Part shown: positions 19,164 to 33,183 of the stretch, one piece after another | Numbering within the stretch: position 1 is the first letter of the stretch | How the letters are laid out: the number at the start of each line of letters is the position of its first letter | IMG/VR virus record: IMGVR_UViG_3300030382_004256 | Location: 1-33,501 of that record | Source of the DNA: a virus | Reading direction: 5' to 3' (one strand) | Length of the DNA: 33,501 bases | Made by a program: the position numbers and the translations under genes | Notes under the pieces: model-generated | The model's input: only the letters and a program-made list of their open reading frames with translations | Told to the model about the DNA's origin: nothing | Databases searched by the model: none

Positions 19164-19626
19164 CCTCCAACATCTTTACTTCTAAACGAAGTTCCTCGAT
19201 GGATCTGTTCGCCATCTCGTTTTTAGTATCGGATTCTGAAAATAGACCAAAAATCCTAGCAAGGCTATCAAGGTATCCTTTGTGATCCTTGTATCGGTTC
19301 ATTTCCCTAGCGTTGCGGACTCCCCATGCGTATTCATCGAGAATGTTTTTCTCGGTCAGCAGGGAACGGTTGATTACCATCTCGGCCCGCTGTACGGCAA
19401 TGTGTCCTATGCGAACGCGAACGTCCTGACGCTTTGCTAACGCCGAAGGTCGTCCCCCTACCTGTCCCCCCTCGGGTATTCCAAATGCGGTACGGTAAGA
19501 ATCTTGAAGGCTTCGTCCAGTTGCTACATGAACGGAAAAGATCTCATGCCGCATGTTGTCCAGCGGATTCCCGAGCTTCTCTTGATCCGTGAGGTTTTCA
19601 TACTCTTCAAGAATCTCATCAATCAT
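19027..19626 (-). CDS. terS: Terminase small subunit (199 aa)
   Basis: It precedes and overlaps the large subunit. The region from about residue 25 (MRHEIFSVHVATGRSLQDSYRTAFGIPEGG) followed by GRPSALAKRQDVRVRIGHI looks like the DNA-binding helical domain of small terminases, which resembles 'A-Y-x-A-G' helix-turn-helix terminases. Then follow a long helical oligomerisation region (EEYAW... type: ILDEYAWGVRNAREMNRYKDH) and an acidic tail. It recognises the packaging site. It starts at ATG (19626), sharing ATGA with the upstream small gene. The last 45 or so codons are read in another frame as the TerL N-terminus. Confidence 0.85.
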   Translation of the reverse strand: MIDEILEEYENLTDQEKLGNPLDNMRHEIFSVHVATGRSLQDSYRTAFGIPEGGQVGGRPSALAKRQDVRVRIGHIAVQRAEMVINRSLLTEKNILDEYAWGVRNAREMNRYKDHKGYLDSLARIFGLFSESDTKNEMANRSIEELRLEVKMLEDEFGSAGGIQESPTQGSDSARDITPETGELQALSEANGIPSERKH

Positions 19627-19862
19627 TTATATCCTAGCTTTTCAAGCAGAGCCCGTTCTTTAAGTGTTAGATTCTTACCAGTCCTCGCTTTAGCTAAAAC
19701 TCTTCTTTCGGCAGCAGTTGGTGCCCCTGGACGATTGGGATTACTGGGCCTTTCAGGTTTACTGCTTTTCCAACCACTAGCGGTTGGCGTGAGAGCGGTC
19801 CTTGGCCTGTACTCCCTGTTGTTTCTAGACCCAGGAGCGAGGGTGTTATATCTGTCGGGCAT
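19623..19862 (-). CDS. First gene of the virion operon, small basic protein (79 aa)
   Basis: A short basic protein (MPDRYNTLAPGSRNNREYRPRTALT ... TAAERRVLAKARTGKNLTLKERALLEKLGYK) whose C-terminal helical part is conserved-looking. I do not recognise it. A longer reading up to 20045 is possible but would begin inside the promoter and cross a leader hairpin. The ATG at 19862 has GGGAGAGGAG just upstream, so I use it. It ends in ATGA with the small terminase gene, so it is the promoter-proximal member of the packaging operon. Confidence 0.65.
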   Translation of the reverse strand: MPDRYNTLAPGSRNNREYRPRTALTPTASGWKSSKPERPSNPNRPGAPTAAERRVLAKARTGKNLTLKERALLEKLGYK

Positions 19863-19929
19863 ACTCCTCTCCCGTAGTTGCCATAAGAGCGCAGTTGTAC
19901 TTAAGTGTTCTGAGAGAACCCAACCATTG

Positions 19930-19964
19930 ACTGCCATCGACCCGCCTAAGCGGGACGAGGCAGT
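19930..19964 (-). promoter_or_regulatory. Two-tier hairpin in the leader of the virion operon
   Basis: Outer stem 19930-19935 with 19959-19964 (6 bp), an internal loop (5 and 4 bases), inner stem 19941-19945 with 19950-19954 (5 GC pairs) and a four-base loop. It sits about 30-65 bases downstream of the predicted start site of the leftward promoter and before the first ribosome site. A role as attenuator, protein-binding leader or transcript stabiliser is possible. No U-run follows. Confidence 0.5.
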
Positions 19965-20000
19965 ACGATCTCTTTTATACTTATCGTTTCGTCCCTCCTC

Positions 20001-20030
20001 AATATAAGAGCCTTTGTATAGGCTTGTCAA
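20001..20030 (-). promoter_or_regulatory. Near-consensus sigma70-type promoter for the leftward operon
   Basis: Minus strand: -35 TTGACA (20030-20025), 18-base spacer, -10 TATATT (20006-20001). The -35 is a perfect match and the -10 matches five of six. The predicted start of transcription is near 19994. It faces the whole packaging and virion operon, so host RNA polymerase can probably transcribe it. The spacer itself contains a small inverted repeat (AGCC ... GGCT) that might bind a regulator. Confidence 0.75.
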
Positions 20031-20103
20031 GGGAAATATCTTCATTATATGGTTCTATTATAAGAGGCGAACATGCTCCCAGACTGAGGATTCGATATTT
20101 ACT

Positions 20104-20300: not shown

Positions 20301-20609
20301 ATGTCACACATACGAGCGACACCTCATGACCTAGTGCAATTCAGGAAGAAACATGCTCTTTCCCAAGCACAGTTAGCCAGCGACCTCGGGGTAACGCGCC
20401 AATCCGTATCACGATGGGAGAACGGACACGTGAGGATACCGTCCATCATGCCAGTAACGCTGCGTGGCCTAGCCCACATCTACCAATCAAGACGCACCTC
20501 CAAGCGGGCACACGAACGCAAGCGCCTCGTCCGACAACAGAACCTTGAAAGGCAGCGAGCCACCGCACTAGACCACATGCCTGACCACATCAGACGACTC
20601 TTCGAGTAG
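20301..20609 (+). CDS. XRE-family helix-turn-helix regulator (102 aa)
   Basis: Residues about 8-62 form a classic Cro/CI-type HTH: LVQFRKKHALSQAQLASDLGVTRQSVSRWENGHVRIP, with the recognition helix around TRQSVSRWE. The C-terminal third is very basic (RRTSKRAHERKRLVRQQNLERQ) and may add DNA or RNA contact. It is the first plus-strand gene after the divergent region, so a role in switching the divergent promoters is likely. No convincing Shine-Dalgarno precedes the ATG, so it may be weakly translated or leaderless. Upstream, 20199-20300 holds no other gene that I can see. Confidence 0.85.
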   Translation: MSHIRATPHDLVQFRKKHALSQAQLASDLGVTRQSVSRWENGHVRIPSIMPVTLRGLAHIYQSRRTSKRAHERKRLVRQQNLERQRATALDHMPDHIRRLFE

Positions 20610-20662
20610 CTCAATGGCTTGCCCACCCCTCGGGTAGCGCGGGGTGTTCTCGCCCACTCGAA
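20601..20662 (+). other. Hairpin spanning the stop codon of the XRE gene
   Basis: TTCGAGT at 20601-20607 pairs with ACTCGAA at 20656-20662. Inside, CACCCC (20624-20629) pairs with GGGGTG (20641-20646). There is no following T-run, so this is not a standard terminator. It leads directly into the structured non-coding region and may be its first helix or a separator between the mRNA and that region. Confidence 0.5.
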
Positions 20663-20869
20663 GTAGTAAGTGTGAAAGAGGCGTCCTCCGAAGACTACGG
20701 AGCGCGTGCGGGCGTTAACAAAGTAACGCCGTACCAAAGCATATGGCTTAAACAGCGAACCTCGTTATCTGCAAAAAGATTTGCTTTACGTAAAACACGC
20801 CCTGTAGTGACGTAAAACAGAAAGACCGCGTAACGCCGCGGACGCACTTTTGCGAGCAAGCTCGCCTGC

Positions 20870-21047
20870 ATTGGTTACGGGCGACAGGCCATGGCTGCCA
20901 GGGGTGCGGGAATCCTTTTGTCCATGAAGACATGGATGATTCCCTGATGGAAAATGCTCCTGCTTCGCGAACTTGGTTCCGCCGTAACCAATACAGGTGG
21001 ACTCCTTGGACCCCATCGAGGGGTCCGTTCGTCCAATTAAGTTCGCG
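20870..21047 (+). other. Long-range pseudoknot in the candidate RNA
   Basis: ATTGGTTACGG (20870-20880) is perfectly complementary to CCGTAACCAAT (20982-20992), 11 bp. CGCGAACTT (20966-20974) is perfectly complementary to AAGTTCGCG (21039-21047), 9 bp. The four strands alternate, so both helices together make a pseudoknot; otherwise they are exclusive neighbours in alternative folds. The region between the last two strands holds a separate 7-bp GC hairpin (21008-21014 with 21020-21026) extended by GGAC/GTCC (20999-21002, 21031-21034). Confidence 0.6.
20908..20944 (+). repeat. Bulged hairpin motif, copy 1
   Basis: Basal stem GGGAATC/GATTCCC (20908-20914, 20938-20944), U-rich 5' bulge CTTTTG, apical stem TCCATG/CATGGA with loop AAGA. 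The pair next to the bulge is G20920-T20937, a wobble only if the plus strand is RNA; copies 2 and 3 have A-T there. It lies inside the 11-bp helix of the pseudoknot domain. Confidence 0.75.
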
Positions 21048-21110
21048 TTTTGCCAACAATTGGATGCAGGATAGCATCCAATCACGGCACGGCTCCTTGA
21101 CAATCACCAC

Positions 21111-21152
21111 GACGCTCTCTCTTTTATCCATGAAGACATGGATGAGAGCGTC
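21111..21152 (+). repeat. Bulged hairpin motif, copy 2
   Basis: Basal stem GACGCTCTC/GAGAGCGTC (21111-21119, 21144-21152), 5' bulge TCTTTT, apical stem ATCCATG/CATGGAT with loop AAGA. The apical part and bulge match copies 1 and 3, but the basal stem is entirely different in sequence and still fully paired, which is compensatory change. Confidence 0.75.
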
Positions 21153-21157
21153 TAAAT

Positions 21158-21195
21158 CCGCGCTGTTTTCATCCTTGCGGACAAGGATGGCGCGG
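21158..21195 (+). repeat. Bulged hairpin motif, divergent copy
   Basis: Basal stem CCGCGC/GCGCGG (21158-21163, 21190-21195), 5' bulge TGTTTT, apical stem CATCCTTG/CAAGGATG with loop CGGA. It has the same architecture as copies 1-3 but different sequence apart from the U-rich bulge, so it is a structural rather than sequence repeat. Confidence 0.65.
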
Positions 21196-21276
21196 AATGG
21201 CGATTGTCGTTCGCCTAAAACGCGATAGTACCCCACCACACACAACAGATTACTTACAGGGTATCACAGAGTGATC

Positions 21277-21313
21277 GGGAATCACTTTATCCATGAAGAC
21301 ATGGATGATTCCC
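21277..21313 (+). repeat. Bulged hairpin motif, copy 3
   Basis: Basal stem GGGAATC/GATTCCC (21277-21283, 21307-21313), 5' bulge ending CTTT, apical stem ATCCATG/CATGGAT with loop AAGA. It is nearly identical to copy 1, about 370 bases away, indicating duplication. It is preceded by a small ATCAC/GTGAT hairpin and followed by the CAGAGCC/GGCTCTG helix. Confidence 0.75.
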
Positions 21314-21432
21314 TGTCAGAGCCTTGGAGAAGGCTACTAATCATTCGAGACTCTTTCCCGACGGCTCTGGATCATGTTTTTCGCCACTAATCGGTCCCAA
21401 CGATGTTTTAACTAAGTTGAGGACAACTTACT

Positions 21433-21462
21433 CGCCCTCTTTTTCCACTTCGTGGAAGGGCG
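21433..21462 (+). repeat. Bulged hairpin motif, short variant
   Basis: Basal stem CGCCCT/AGGGCG (21433-21438, 21457-21462), U-rich 5' bulge CTTTT, apical stem TCCAC/GTGGA with a UUC loop. It repeats the design of the other copies: U-rich bulge on the 5' side, apical stem opening with TCCA. It is immediately preceded by a separate 7-bp hairpin with AGGA loop (21413-21430). Confidence 0.6.
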
Positions 21463-21508
21463 ACCCTAAAGGGTTAAAAATCTTATGGCCCCTCAATTGT
21501 CGAAAACC

Positions 21509-21579
21509 GGCCAAGCAAGCCACTGCCAGAAAGAATCCTCTCCCTACAGTGGGAGAGGCTGGCACAAGCTTGCAGGGCC
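21509..21579 (+). other. Long interrupted helix in the candidate RNA
   Basis: Four stacked helices: GGCC (21509-21512/21576-21579), GCAAGC/GCTTGC (21515-21520/21568-21573), TGCCAG/CTGGCA (21524-21529/21559-21564) and CCTCTCCC/GGGAGAGG (21537-21544/21551-21558). They are separated by internal loops of 2x2 and 3x3 bases and a seven-base 5' bulge, and capped by TACAGT. Twenty-four pairs in 71 bases with regular interruptions is typical of functional RNA. Confidence 0.65.
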
Positions 21580-21686
21580 TACACGCGAAAGGATATTCGC
21601 GCTCTGAGCTATCCGTGTAAGTTATCTGTTGCGTGCGATGCGGGCATGGTGCCTAAGGCGAGTATGCGACTCAGAGGAGAACGAGC

Positions 21687-21902
21687 ATGACCGAGATTTT
21701 CGCGCAAATATGGTTTCGGGAGGCACGACGCCTTGACCGAGAGTTGGACCGACCCGAAGGCAATGCCGAGACCACCTTCCAGCTTCTCATGGCTGCCCGA
21801 AATCATGCGTGGCGCATGAAGTGGGCGTATAACGATTACGGGCAGGATCATTACGTCCGACCCTGCTGCTCATGCTTACAGTGCTTGTCGCAGGGCTTTT
21901 AG
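21687..21902 (+). CDS. Small helical protein, paralog 1 (71 aa)
   Basis: The N-terminus (MTEIFAQIWFREARRLDRELDR) shares the pattern I-x-Q-x-W-x-x-E-L with the next two genes, but the C-terminal half is different and contains a cysteine cluster (CCSCLQC, residues about 60-66) that could bind metal. The ribosome site AGGAGAACGAGC before the ATG is repeated word for word before the next two genes. No known function. It directly follows the structured non-coding region, so its expression may depend on that RNA. Confidence 0.65.
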   Translation: MTEIFAQIWFREARRLDRELDRPEGNAETTFQLLMAARNHAWRMKWAYNDYGQDHYVRPCCSCLQCLSQGF

Positions 21903-21972
21903 AACGCCTTGATCGCATCGGGGTATTGTGCCCCGGTGCGGTCGAAGACGACCGCATTTAAGGAGAACGAGC

Positions 21973-22182
21973 ATGATCGACGGATTGATTCAAATTTGGG
22001 AGCGCGAGCTTGATCAGGCGAATGCCGAGGTTGAGCGGTATTCCGACCAGTATTACGAAGGTGGTACCTACCTCGAAGGAGACTGCGACCGCTACTGGGA
22101 GCTTCCAGAGGTCGAAGAGGCAGACGGACGCCTTGCCATCGCAGAAGAAACGCTTGAGCAATTGACGAAATTCACCTCATAA
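21973..22182 (+). CDS. Small helical protein, paralog 2 (69 aa)
   Basis: MIDGLIQIWERELDQANAEVERY at the start and RLAIAEETLEQLTKFTS at the end match paralog 3 closely. The middle is acidic and aromatic (YYEGGTYLEGDCDRYWELPEVEEAD). The true start is the ATG at 21973, which has AGGAGAACGAGC upstream; an in-frame ATG at 21928 has no such site. It is probably two helices forming a hairpin or oligomer. Family and function unknown. Confidence 0.75.
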   Translation: MIDGLIQIWERELDQANAEVERYSDQYYEGGTYLEGDCDRYWELPEVEEADGRLAIAEETLEQLTKFTS

Positions 22183-22194
22183 AGGAGAACGAGC

Positions 22195-22410
22195 ATGTAC
22201 GATATCAACGGATTTATTCAAACTTGGGAGCTTGAGCTAAAAAGGGCTCAGTTGGCATTGGGTACGAGCTACTGCCAGTGGATAGTCGATTGCGGAACAG
22301 ACGCGACGAATAAGGGGTGGGACCGCATGTTGGCGAAAGACGCACGACTGGCCGAAATGTACCTTCGCGTTGTTATCGCAGAAGAGACGTTGACGAAGTT
22401 CACCTCATAG
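22195..22410 (+). CDS. Small helical protein, paralog 3 (71 aa)
   Basis: The ends match paralog 2 (FIQTWELELKRAQLAL at the start, VVIAEETLTKFTS at the end) while the centre differs (SYCQWIVDCGTDATNKGWDRML). The gene begins 12 bases after paralog 2 and has the same ribosome site, so it arose by tandem duplication including the leader. Conserved ends with variable centre could mean a shared oligomerisation frame with changing specificity. The function is unknown. Confidence 0.75.
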   Translation: MYDINGFIQTWELELKRAQLALGTSYCQWIVDCGTDATNKGWDRMLAKDARLAEMYLRVVIAEETLTKFTS

Positions 22411-25525: not shown

Positions 25526-26596
25526 ATGCACAATGTAGAAAAAATGATGTTCACTGGTAAAAAGCCTTGGTGGTATGGAAACAAGTCACAAGGTACAGCA
25601 GTAGGCGTTGACCTCGGAAACGGTCCAGTCACTTCAGCAGAAGCAATCGCAGCAGCAGGCCTTGATTGGGATGTAGATAAATCACCAGCCTACATCAAAA
25701 ATAATGAAGGTGAGTTCACTGAAGTAAATAACGAAAAGTTTCTTATCCGCACATCTGATCAAAGCATCCTCGGTCGATGCACAGATCAATACGAACTATT
25801 CCAAAACAGGGAAGCATTCACGTTCTTGGACAGCATAGTGAATGAAGGAGACCTTCTCTATCATACTGCCGGATCGCTTGAAGAAGGGAAACGAGTCTGG
25901 ATTCTTGCTCAGACCCCAGACTCTTGGCAAGTGCGTAGGATGTCTGGAGTAAATAATACTCATCATGCCTTCCTTCTTACTGCAATTGGTCACGATGGAA
26001 AGTCCTCTATCAATATGATGCCCACGGATATTCGCGCAGAATGCGCGAATACCGTAGGGTACGCTGAAAGCATTGCTCAAAAGCAAAGCTTGATGTTTCG
26101 CATTCCTCATAAGGGTGCGATTCTTGAAAAGCTTGAACTTGCAGCTACTGCAATCGAAGTAATGCGTGGTGAAACTGAAGAGCGAAGGCGCATCCTTCAA
26201 GAATTTGCAAACAATTCAATGAGTACTGATGAGTTTATTGATTTTGCTCTTGAAGTTTTCCTGAACCTCGATGGCCCTAAGTCGAAGGTAAAAAAGGAAG
26301 TAAGCTTGTTCTACGAAGAGGCTGGAAATCGAAGCCAGGTGATGATGAAGAACAAGGTGGAGAAGGCCACAGACCTCTTCCATAATGGGTTCGGAAACGA
26401 GGGCAATTCGTCATATGACGCGCTACAAGCCTTCACAGAGTACTTTGACCACTTCGACCTTAACCATGTAAAGGATAAGATTACCAAAGGCAAGAGGGCA
26501 GCTAAAGCCGTTCAGAATAGCTGGATGGGCGATGGTGCTGCCAAGAAGAACTTAGCGTACAAGAAACTCGCAAAGCGAGTCAAGGTACTTTCATAA
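25526..26596 (+). CDS. DUF932 phage/plasmid-like protein (356 aa)
   Basis: The full-length pattern of DUF932 proteins is visible: an N-terminal 'PWWYGN' region, 'WDVDKSPAYI', 'SILGRCTDQYELFQNREAFTFLDSIV', 'KRVWILAQTPDSW', 'NNTHHAFLLTAIGHDGKSSINMMPTDIRAECANTV' and a C-terminal helical part ending before 'NSWMGDGAAKKNLAYKKL'. These proteins are common on phages and plasmids and often lie near recombination genes. Their biochemical role is not established. The gene is more G+C-rich than its neighbours towards its 3' end. It is a single-copy, intact member of typical length. Confidence 0.9.
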   Translation: MHNVEKMMFTGKKPWWYGNKSQGTAVGVDLGNGPVTSAEAIAAAGLDWDVDKSPAYIKNNEGEFTEVNNEKFLIRTSDQSILGRCTDQYELFQNREAFTFLDSIVNEGDLLYHTAGSLEEGKRVWILAQTPDSWQVRRMSGVNNTHHAFLLTAIGHDGKSSINMMPTDIRAECANTVGYAESIAQKQSLMFRIPHKGAILEKLELAATAIEVMRGETEERRRILQEFANNSMSTDEFIDFALEVFLNLDGPKSKVKKEVSLFYEEAGNRSQVMMKNKVEKATDLFHNGFGNEGNSSYDALQAFTEYFDHFDLNHVKDKITKGKRAAKAVQNSWMGDGAAKKNLAYKKLAKRVKVLS

Positions 26597-28056: not shown

Positions 28057-28254
28057 ATGCTTGATACAGAATTATTCGTGATATACGATGGAAACGTGAT
28101 GCGATGGTTCGCAGGCAACCGATCCGGCTCCGATCCTGTTGGGGAACTATCCAAAGAAAAAGCAATCGAGTGGGCTGAAAATAAGATGACCACCTTCGGG
28201 TGCTTTCATCTTAATTTCACTATGGGCGATTGGTTGGTGGTAACGGGAATGTAG
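28057..28254 (+). CDS. Hypothetical protein overlapping a tRNA (65 aa)
   Basis: A small protein (MLDTELFVIYDGNVMRWFAGNRSGSDPVGELSKEKAIEWAENKM ... WLVVTGM), not recognised. I use the ATG at 28057 with AAAGGG upstream; an ATG at 28042 overlapping the previous stop (TAATG) is an alternative. The last codons and the TAG are part of the tRNA-Leu acceptor and D-arm junction, so CDS and tRNA overlap by ten bases and processing of the tRNA would truncate the mRNA. Confidence 0.65.
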   Translation: MLDTELFVIYDGNVMRWFAGNRSGSDPVGELSKEKAIEWAENKMTTFGCFHLNFTMGDWLVVTGM

Positions 28255-28320
28255 CCCAATGGCAGAGGCAGGGGACTTAAAATCCCTCTAGTGTGGGTTC
28301 AAGTCCCACCATTCCCACCA
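28245..28320 (+). tRNA. tRNA with Leu anticodon UAA, unusual short variable loop
   Basis: Acceptor GGGAATG/CATTCCC (28245-28251, 28310-28316), D-stem GCC/GGC, anticodon stem GGGGA/TCCCT with loop CTTAAAA (anticodon TAA at 28278-28280), five-base variable region, T-arm GTGGG-TTCAAGT-CCCAC, discriminator A and an encoded CCA. All canonical landmarks are present. It would read UUA/UUG codons. Bacterial tRNA-Leu normally has a long variable arm; here there are five bases, so charging identity is uncertain. Confidence 0.9.
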
Positions 28321-28321
28321 A

Positions 28322-28398
28322 TGGCCCATAGCTCAAAAGGTTAGAGCACACGTCTTATAAGCGTGCGGTTCCGGGTTCAAGTCCCGGTGGGCCGACCA
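28322..28398 (+). tRNA. tRNA-Ile (anticodon UAU)
   Basis: Acceptor TGGCCCA/TGGGCCG (28322-28328, 28388-28394, first pair U-G), D-arm GCTC/GAGC, anticodon stem CACGT/GCGTG with loop CTTATAA (anticodon TAT at 28356-28358), variable CGGTT, T-arm CCGGG-TTCAAGT-CCCGG, discriminator A, CCA encoded. It reads the rare AUA codon. One base separates it from the preceding tRNA, so both are probably cut from one transcript. If processing starts at 28323, the acceptor has six pairs. Confidence 0.93.
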
Positions 28399-33110: not shown

Positions 33111-33112
33111 AG

Positions 33113-33156
33113 ATAATGATCGTTAGAACCCCTTGAGGGGTTCTAACGATCATTAT
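33113..33156. terminator. 20-bp perfect hairpin after the ATPase gene
   Basis: 33113-33132 pairs with 33137-33156 without any mismatch, with loop TTGA. It begins two bases after the stop. No T-run on either side. A very stable mark: possible bidirectional terminator, RNase III site or DNA cruciform. It is followed by another gene on the same strand. Confidence 0.7.
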
Positions 33157-33183
33157 ATTATCTGTCAACAGAAAGGTCAGGAA

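Follow-up and report, generated by a model that had tools for sequence, protein, structure and literature searches.

The window analysed here is the whole 33,501-nt stretch of the IMG/VR record IMGVR_UViG_3300030382_004256. Its source is an uncultivated marine podophage with pelagiphage-like head genes that infects bacteria; the capsid protein most resembles that of HTVC010P-group pelagiphages (about 42-46% identity), and the terminase that of Rhizobium phages (about 50% identity). The largest gap within the window is a non-coding segment of 1,077 nt (20610-21686; ~1 kb, 3% of the virus record), with a GC content of 52% against 42.8% for the window overall. This gap separates the late gene block from the divergently oriented early block, lies close to the terminase gene and is flanked by an HTH gene (20301-20609) and by small early genes (21687 on)—all on the plus strand. 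The late structural genes run leftward and reach about 20.0 kb; a near-perfect sigma-70-like promoter on the minus strand (20030-20001; TTGACA, 18 nt, TATATT) marks the start of these genes, and the true start of the ORF at 19623-20045 may be near 19863. On the early side, three small tandem genes (21687-22410) resemble paralogues, with AGGAGAACGAGCATG as their common leader and N-termini that are related. We also observed a DUF932 protein (25526-26596, Pfam E = 1.6e-35), for which DNA-level similarity is present in relatives, and a long near-perfect hairpin with a 15-bp apical stem just past the helicase gene (33111-33163, minus strand). No ORF inside the gap gave a credible Pfam match. A cmscan of the whole window against Rfam 15 returned, at the gathering threshold, only two tRNAs (tRNA-Leu and tRNA-Ile, 28245-28398, about 6.6 kb away from the gap), and a search of the gap alone up to E = 10 yielded only two unrelated chance matches. 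Additionally, phage and plasmid records searched with the whole gap and a wider region returned nothing, and searches of the open-access literature turned up no large non-coding RNA described for these phages.

The initial annotation had drawn attention to a sequence, TCCATGAAGACATGGA, repeated in hairpins within the gap. Its three copies are exact and lie at 20921, 21127 and 21290, as claimed; even with 3 mismatches allowed, three matches arose in only 4/100 shuffles. The basal stems are also fully paired as described, with GGGAATC/GATTCCC in copies 1 and 3 and GACGCTCTC/GAGAGCGTC in copy 2, and the junction pair above the bulge, G-U in copy 1, is A-U in the other two copies. When stability was compared with dinucleotide-shuffled controls on the plus strand, copies 2 and 3 fell far beyond chance (z = -6.2 and -3.9, respectively; 0/200 shuffles for each), but copy 1 was marginal (z = -1.8; 11/200). 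The within-molecule covariation that had been proposed is likewise real, but it draws on two independent basal stems rather than three—copies 1 and 3 count once because they form a 40-bp duplication with 93% identity.

An architecture scan, defined on the plus strand as an apical stem, a U-rich bulge, a basal stem and a small loop, gave five matches in the gap and none on the remaining plus strand of the window, with 0 matches in 10 whole-window and 200 regional plus-strand shuffles. We number these hairpins 1 (20908-20944), 2 (21111-21152), 3 (21157-21196), 4 (21277-21313) and 5 (21432-21463); hairpins 1, 2 and 4 correspond to copies 1, 2 and 3, while hairpins 3 and 5, whose stems and loops differ from those of the other three, had been overlooked, as had the structure extending across the whole 1.08-kb gap. 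The minimum free energy of the gap departs strongly from that of 40 shuffles (z = -15.8 on the minus strand and -11.5 on the plus strand), and in 200-nt windows the fold signal falls within 20801-21700.

Six IMG/VR contigs encode a terminase with 84-86% identity to that of the window. Two of them, G005 and G006, have the same order of HTH gene, gap and small early gene, and parts of the gap are common to all three phages. The gap of G006 has z values of -7.3 (minus) and -6.2 (plus), while that of G005 is, as a whole, mildly structured (-3.0 minus, -4.3 plus), with a left half that does not align with the window. The best-kept part in these relatives is the orthologue of hairpin 5 (GCGCCC-bulge-GTCCAC...GTGGAC-GGGCGC) together with its neighbour, a GUCCUC-loop hairpin (21413-21430), which on the minus strand follows hairpin 5 immediately on its 3' side. 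In a three-phage alignment of both hairpins (62 columns), 4 of the 20 predicted pairs have changed on both sides; the loop of the GUCCUC hairpin is invariant and its stem altered with compensation, with one outer pair lost in the window. The initial annotation had looked to the basal stems of homologs as a test of its claim, and in the one orthologous hairpin, hairpin 5, the stem is kept with a compensatory change. Moreover, a domain of about 300 nt compared between G005 and G006 contains three compensatory double changes and four one-sided changes, none of which breaks a pair. The selection on RNA structure that had been suggested is borne out by the gap-wide z values, the extra hairpins with unrelated stems and the compensatory changes in the two relatives.

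RNA helices tolerate G.U but not A.C pairs, and reading the other strand swaps the two. In helices that the minimum-energy folds of the two strands have in common, we counted, among interior non-Watson-Crick positions, 14 G.U pairs on the minus strand against 1 on the plus strand (p = 0.001 if pairs are independent); pair counts are not fully independent, and per distinct helix the ratio is about 8 to 1, with p near 0.04. All 4 of the one-sided changes between G005 and G006 stay G.U on the minus strand and would be A.C on the plus strand, while the three double changes keep pairing on both, and the consensus energy of this domain is -115.8 kcal/mol on the minus strand as against -99.6 kcal/mol on the plus strand. 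The sole counter-example among the hairpins is the junction pair of copy 1, which is G-U on the plus strand. Because wobbles run 14 to 1 and the one-sided changes are all G.U on minus, the RNA strand is very probably the minus strand. The strand choice of the initial annotation is probably wrong, with wobbles, one-sided changes and fold energies all favouring the other strand; on the minus strand, its U-rich 5' bulge becomes a 3' A-rich bulge, AAA(A)G, accompanied by a UCYU loop.

Read on the minus strand, the A-rich-bulge hairpins are GGGAATC-A-TCCATG-TCTT-CATGGA-CAAAAG-GATTCCC (hairpin 1), GACGCTCTC-ATCCATG-TCTT-CATGGAT-AAAAGA-GAGAGCGTC (hairpin 2), TCCGCGC-CATCCTTG-TCCG-CAAGGATG-AAAACA-GCGCGGA (hairpin 3), GGGAATC-ATCCATG-TCTT-CATGGAT-AAAGT-GATTCCC (hairpin 4) and TCGCCC-TTCCAC-GAA-GTGGAA-AAAGA-GGGCGA (hairpin 5, orthologous in the two related phages). 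The 5' part of the module comprises a basal stem ending in C-G, a step of 0-2 nt and an apical stem starting N-UCC; its 3' part runs from GGA-N through the A-rich bulge, AAA(A)G(N) or, in hairpin 3, AAAACA, into the basal 3' arm. The loops are UCUU (three copies), UCCG and GAA, with UCCU in G005. The bulge, the adjoining UCC/GGA pairs and commonly the loop are constant and the basal stem is variable, with the constancy of UCC/GGA in hairpins 1, 2 and 4 confounded by common ancestry. In the window's gap, the minus strand carries five GUCYUC motifs (0.55 expected), four of these exactly at hairpin loops, and G005 has four. Most are G(UCYU)C loops, among them that of the GUCCUC hairpin next to hairpin 5. 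A covariance model (R1) built only from orthologues of the hairpin 5 domain matched, always on the minus strand, hairpin 2 (E = 7e-4 in a small search space) and, weakly, hairpins 1 and 4, so that the hairpins plausibly belong to one family. In addition, a second hairpin of G005 (L213, 7467-7509), GTCCATGCCC..CCATG-TCCT-CATGG-ATGAAGA-GGGCATGGAC, with its UCCU loop and 3' purine-rich bulge, is a looser form of the module.

The hairpins are thus real, but they appear as modules of an RNA of ~1 kb and not as the free-standing elements first described. On the minus strand, a long-range helix that closes the domain of hairpin 5 and its neighbour joins a 5' arm at 21616-21646 to a 3' arm at 21229-21258, and both G005 and G006 have helices of different sequence at the equivalent position. 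A 15-bp helix with one G.U on the minus strand encloses hairpin 1 (5' arm 20982-20996, 3' arm 20866-20880), and a separate helix surrounds hairpins 2 and 3 in a three-way junction (5' arm 21197-21208, 3' arm 21099-21110). A candidate intrinsic terminator at 20812-20841 (minus strand), CCGCGGCGTTACGCGG followed by TCTTTCTGTTTT, may provide the 3' end; a T-rich tail is absent beside the G006 version of this hairpin. The 12-nt hairpin core GCGTAACGCCGC (20826-20841) is identical in three phages, and its position varies relative to the neighbouring conserved block. A block at 20682-20803 is 74% identical to G006, only weakly structured and carries the palindromic TTTACGTAAA and CGAACCTCGTT; it possibly serves the HTH protein as a control region in the DNA. 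At the other end, no sigma-70-type promoter was found on the minus strand near 21690, the expected start of the RNA, and a minus-strand start there would abut the ribosome-binding site of the early gene.

Among the related records compared, only a narrow group carries the element. At the same place, G001 and G003 have a different gap of 0.7 kb, and that of G001 showed on examination neither the module nor clear sequence similarity. R1 did not detect the element in the remaining terminase relatives, nor in the pelagiphages HTVC010P, Lederberg and Baldr. An IMG/VR pattern scan for the apical hairpin had no match, a scan with a 14-nt core gave many unrelated matches, and scans for the conserved blocks yielded nothing beyond the two known relatives and chance matches embedded in other sequence. 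Protein-based searches gave a similar picture: no relatives of the small downstream protein were found, the HTH alignment search recovered the same phages and one distant partial match, and the terminase scan of genome contigs only distant relatives. A G005 protein included in alignment A1 was rejected as not a true homologue (20% identity), and the alignment was left unused.

Taken as a whole, the evidence suggests, with a probability of about two in three, that the gap (20610-21686) encodes a single large non-coding RNA, structured, about 0.9-1.1 kb long and founding a family of its own—a putative leftward, minus-strand transcript of this marine podophage with its 5' end near 21690. We infer that the gap is transcribed, and as a single RNA; the plus orientation of the flanking genes counts against a minus-strand transcript. 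That same orientation would suit a plus-strand leader of the early operon, in which the hairpins would be repeated binding sites for a phage or host protein or for RNA polymerase, serving put- or nut-like antitermination or the control of translation. The gap indeed ends at the ribosome-binding site of an early gene, repeated hairpins with one constant part are well suited to protein binding, and the junction pair of hairpin 1 is a G.U on the plus strand. However, wobbles at 14 to 1 and 4/4 one-sided changes favour the minus strand, whose fold is also the more stable in both the window and G006, and put and nut sites are far smaller than a 1-kb leader. Since such sites act from within the nascent RNA of the operon under their control, they would be expected here on the plus strand, although sites of this type on a leftward transcript are conceivable; we consider a leader of this kind unlikely. 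A role of the gap as DNA, i.e., as a replication origin or packaging site whose palindromes act as DNA hairpins or protein sites, seems less probable still. Its place between the two divergent gene blocks and close to the terminase gene, its strong inverted repeats on both strands and the conserved palindromes of the left block, TTTACGTAAA for example, are all compatible with that role, yet duplex sites predict no bias of G.U over A.C such as the 14 to 1 seen, and long-range helices, with arms several hundred nt apart, stay paired despite sequence change.

The two remaining explanations centre on the hairpins themselves. The UCYU loops, which are complementary to AGGA/AAGA, could pair with ribosome-binding sites of target mRNAs, somewhat in the manner of the redundant UCCC-loop hairpins of staphylococcal RNAIII, and G(UCYU)C loops do recur in different stems and are enriched on the minus strand. 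Nevertheless, at the 34 gene starts inspected, GARGA lies upstream of 6 and the full GARGAC partner upstream of none (0/34), the loop is no more constant than the A-rich bulge, and in hairpin 5 it is GAA; a regulatory RNA of this type is thus highly improbable. We give slightly less credence again to mobile palindromic repeats (REP/BIME-like) gathered in a neutral gap, to which the 40-bp duplication of hairpins 1 and 4 and the higher resemblance within each genome than between genomes would correspond. REP/BIME repeats are numerous, near-identical and dispersed over intergenic regions, whereas all hairpins here lie in one gap and none was found outside it in the genome; the module also persists on different stems and, in three phages, at an orthologous position, and the remaining gap is structured too.

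If the gap does encode a large structured RNA, the A-rich bulges and UCYU loops would most likely serve as repeated contact points, engaged through A-minor or loop docking either within one RNA or between RNA copies; a bound protein would be an equally compatible partner. Under this proposal, the basal stems would only set the position of bulge and loop, and their sequence would be free to vary because they merely position the contact surfaces. As standardised docking modules, the hairpins could let the RNA fold or self-assemble, in the course of infection, into a scaffold or cage free of protein—a putative function that we put forward tentatively and hold to be rather doubtful. Known large structured RNAs of phages are very few, and what they do remains poorly understood (PMC12286853). 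Against this background, the locus offers, in a small marine phage, a putative RNA outside every Rfam family in which one module is repeated internally with varying stems. The changing stems reveal which parts matter (bulge, loop and junction), and the repeats provide short constructs for docking, binding or assembly tests.

Several known RNAs invite comparison with the proposed gap RNA. RNAIII of S. aureus carries redundant hairpins with pyrimidine-rich UCCC loops in one long RNA, and the gap RNA resembles it in having several pyrimidine-loop hairpins within a long RNA, but differs in its UCYU loops, its A-rich bulge, the lack of an Rfam match and the lack of target support. The A-rich bulge of group I introns (P4-P6 domain) is a known docking element and, like the bulge described here, an asymmetric A-rich bulge between two helices; the gap RNA has no other intron feature, and the likeness is a lead only. 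The phi29 pRNA, of about 174 nt, is a phage-encoded structural RNA as well, and one that forms multimers; its Rfam model was not matched by the gap, and nothing here points to a role in packaging. Phi29 is also named among natural RNA homomers (PMC12286853). For GOLLD, ROOL, OLE and the other large RNAs of Rfam, membership was rejected, with no covariance-model match up to E = 10. GOLLD and ROOL typically adjoin tRNA genes in phages or prophages, unlike the gap RNA with its distant tRNA genes, and form homo-oligomeric RNA cages. The likeness lies in size class, extreme fold stability, many hairpins, long-range helices, a non-coding nature and pairing that is conserved while sequence is little conserved; large, heavily paired non-coding RNA with covariation support, a trait of both families, is found here in only three genomes. 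GOLLD and ROOL, which are large ornate RNAs found in bacteria and phages, are described as having extensive A-minor contacts together with kissing loops (PMC12286853), and in large ornate RNAs A-minor and loop interactions operate both within and between molecules (PMC12286853). The best reading of the locus, by analogy, is a large phage RNA that appears comparable in kind to GOLLD and ROOL while standing outside both families.
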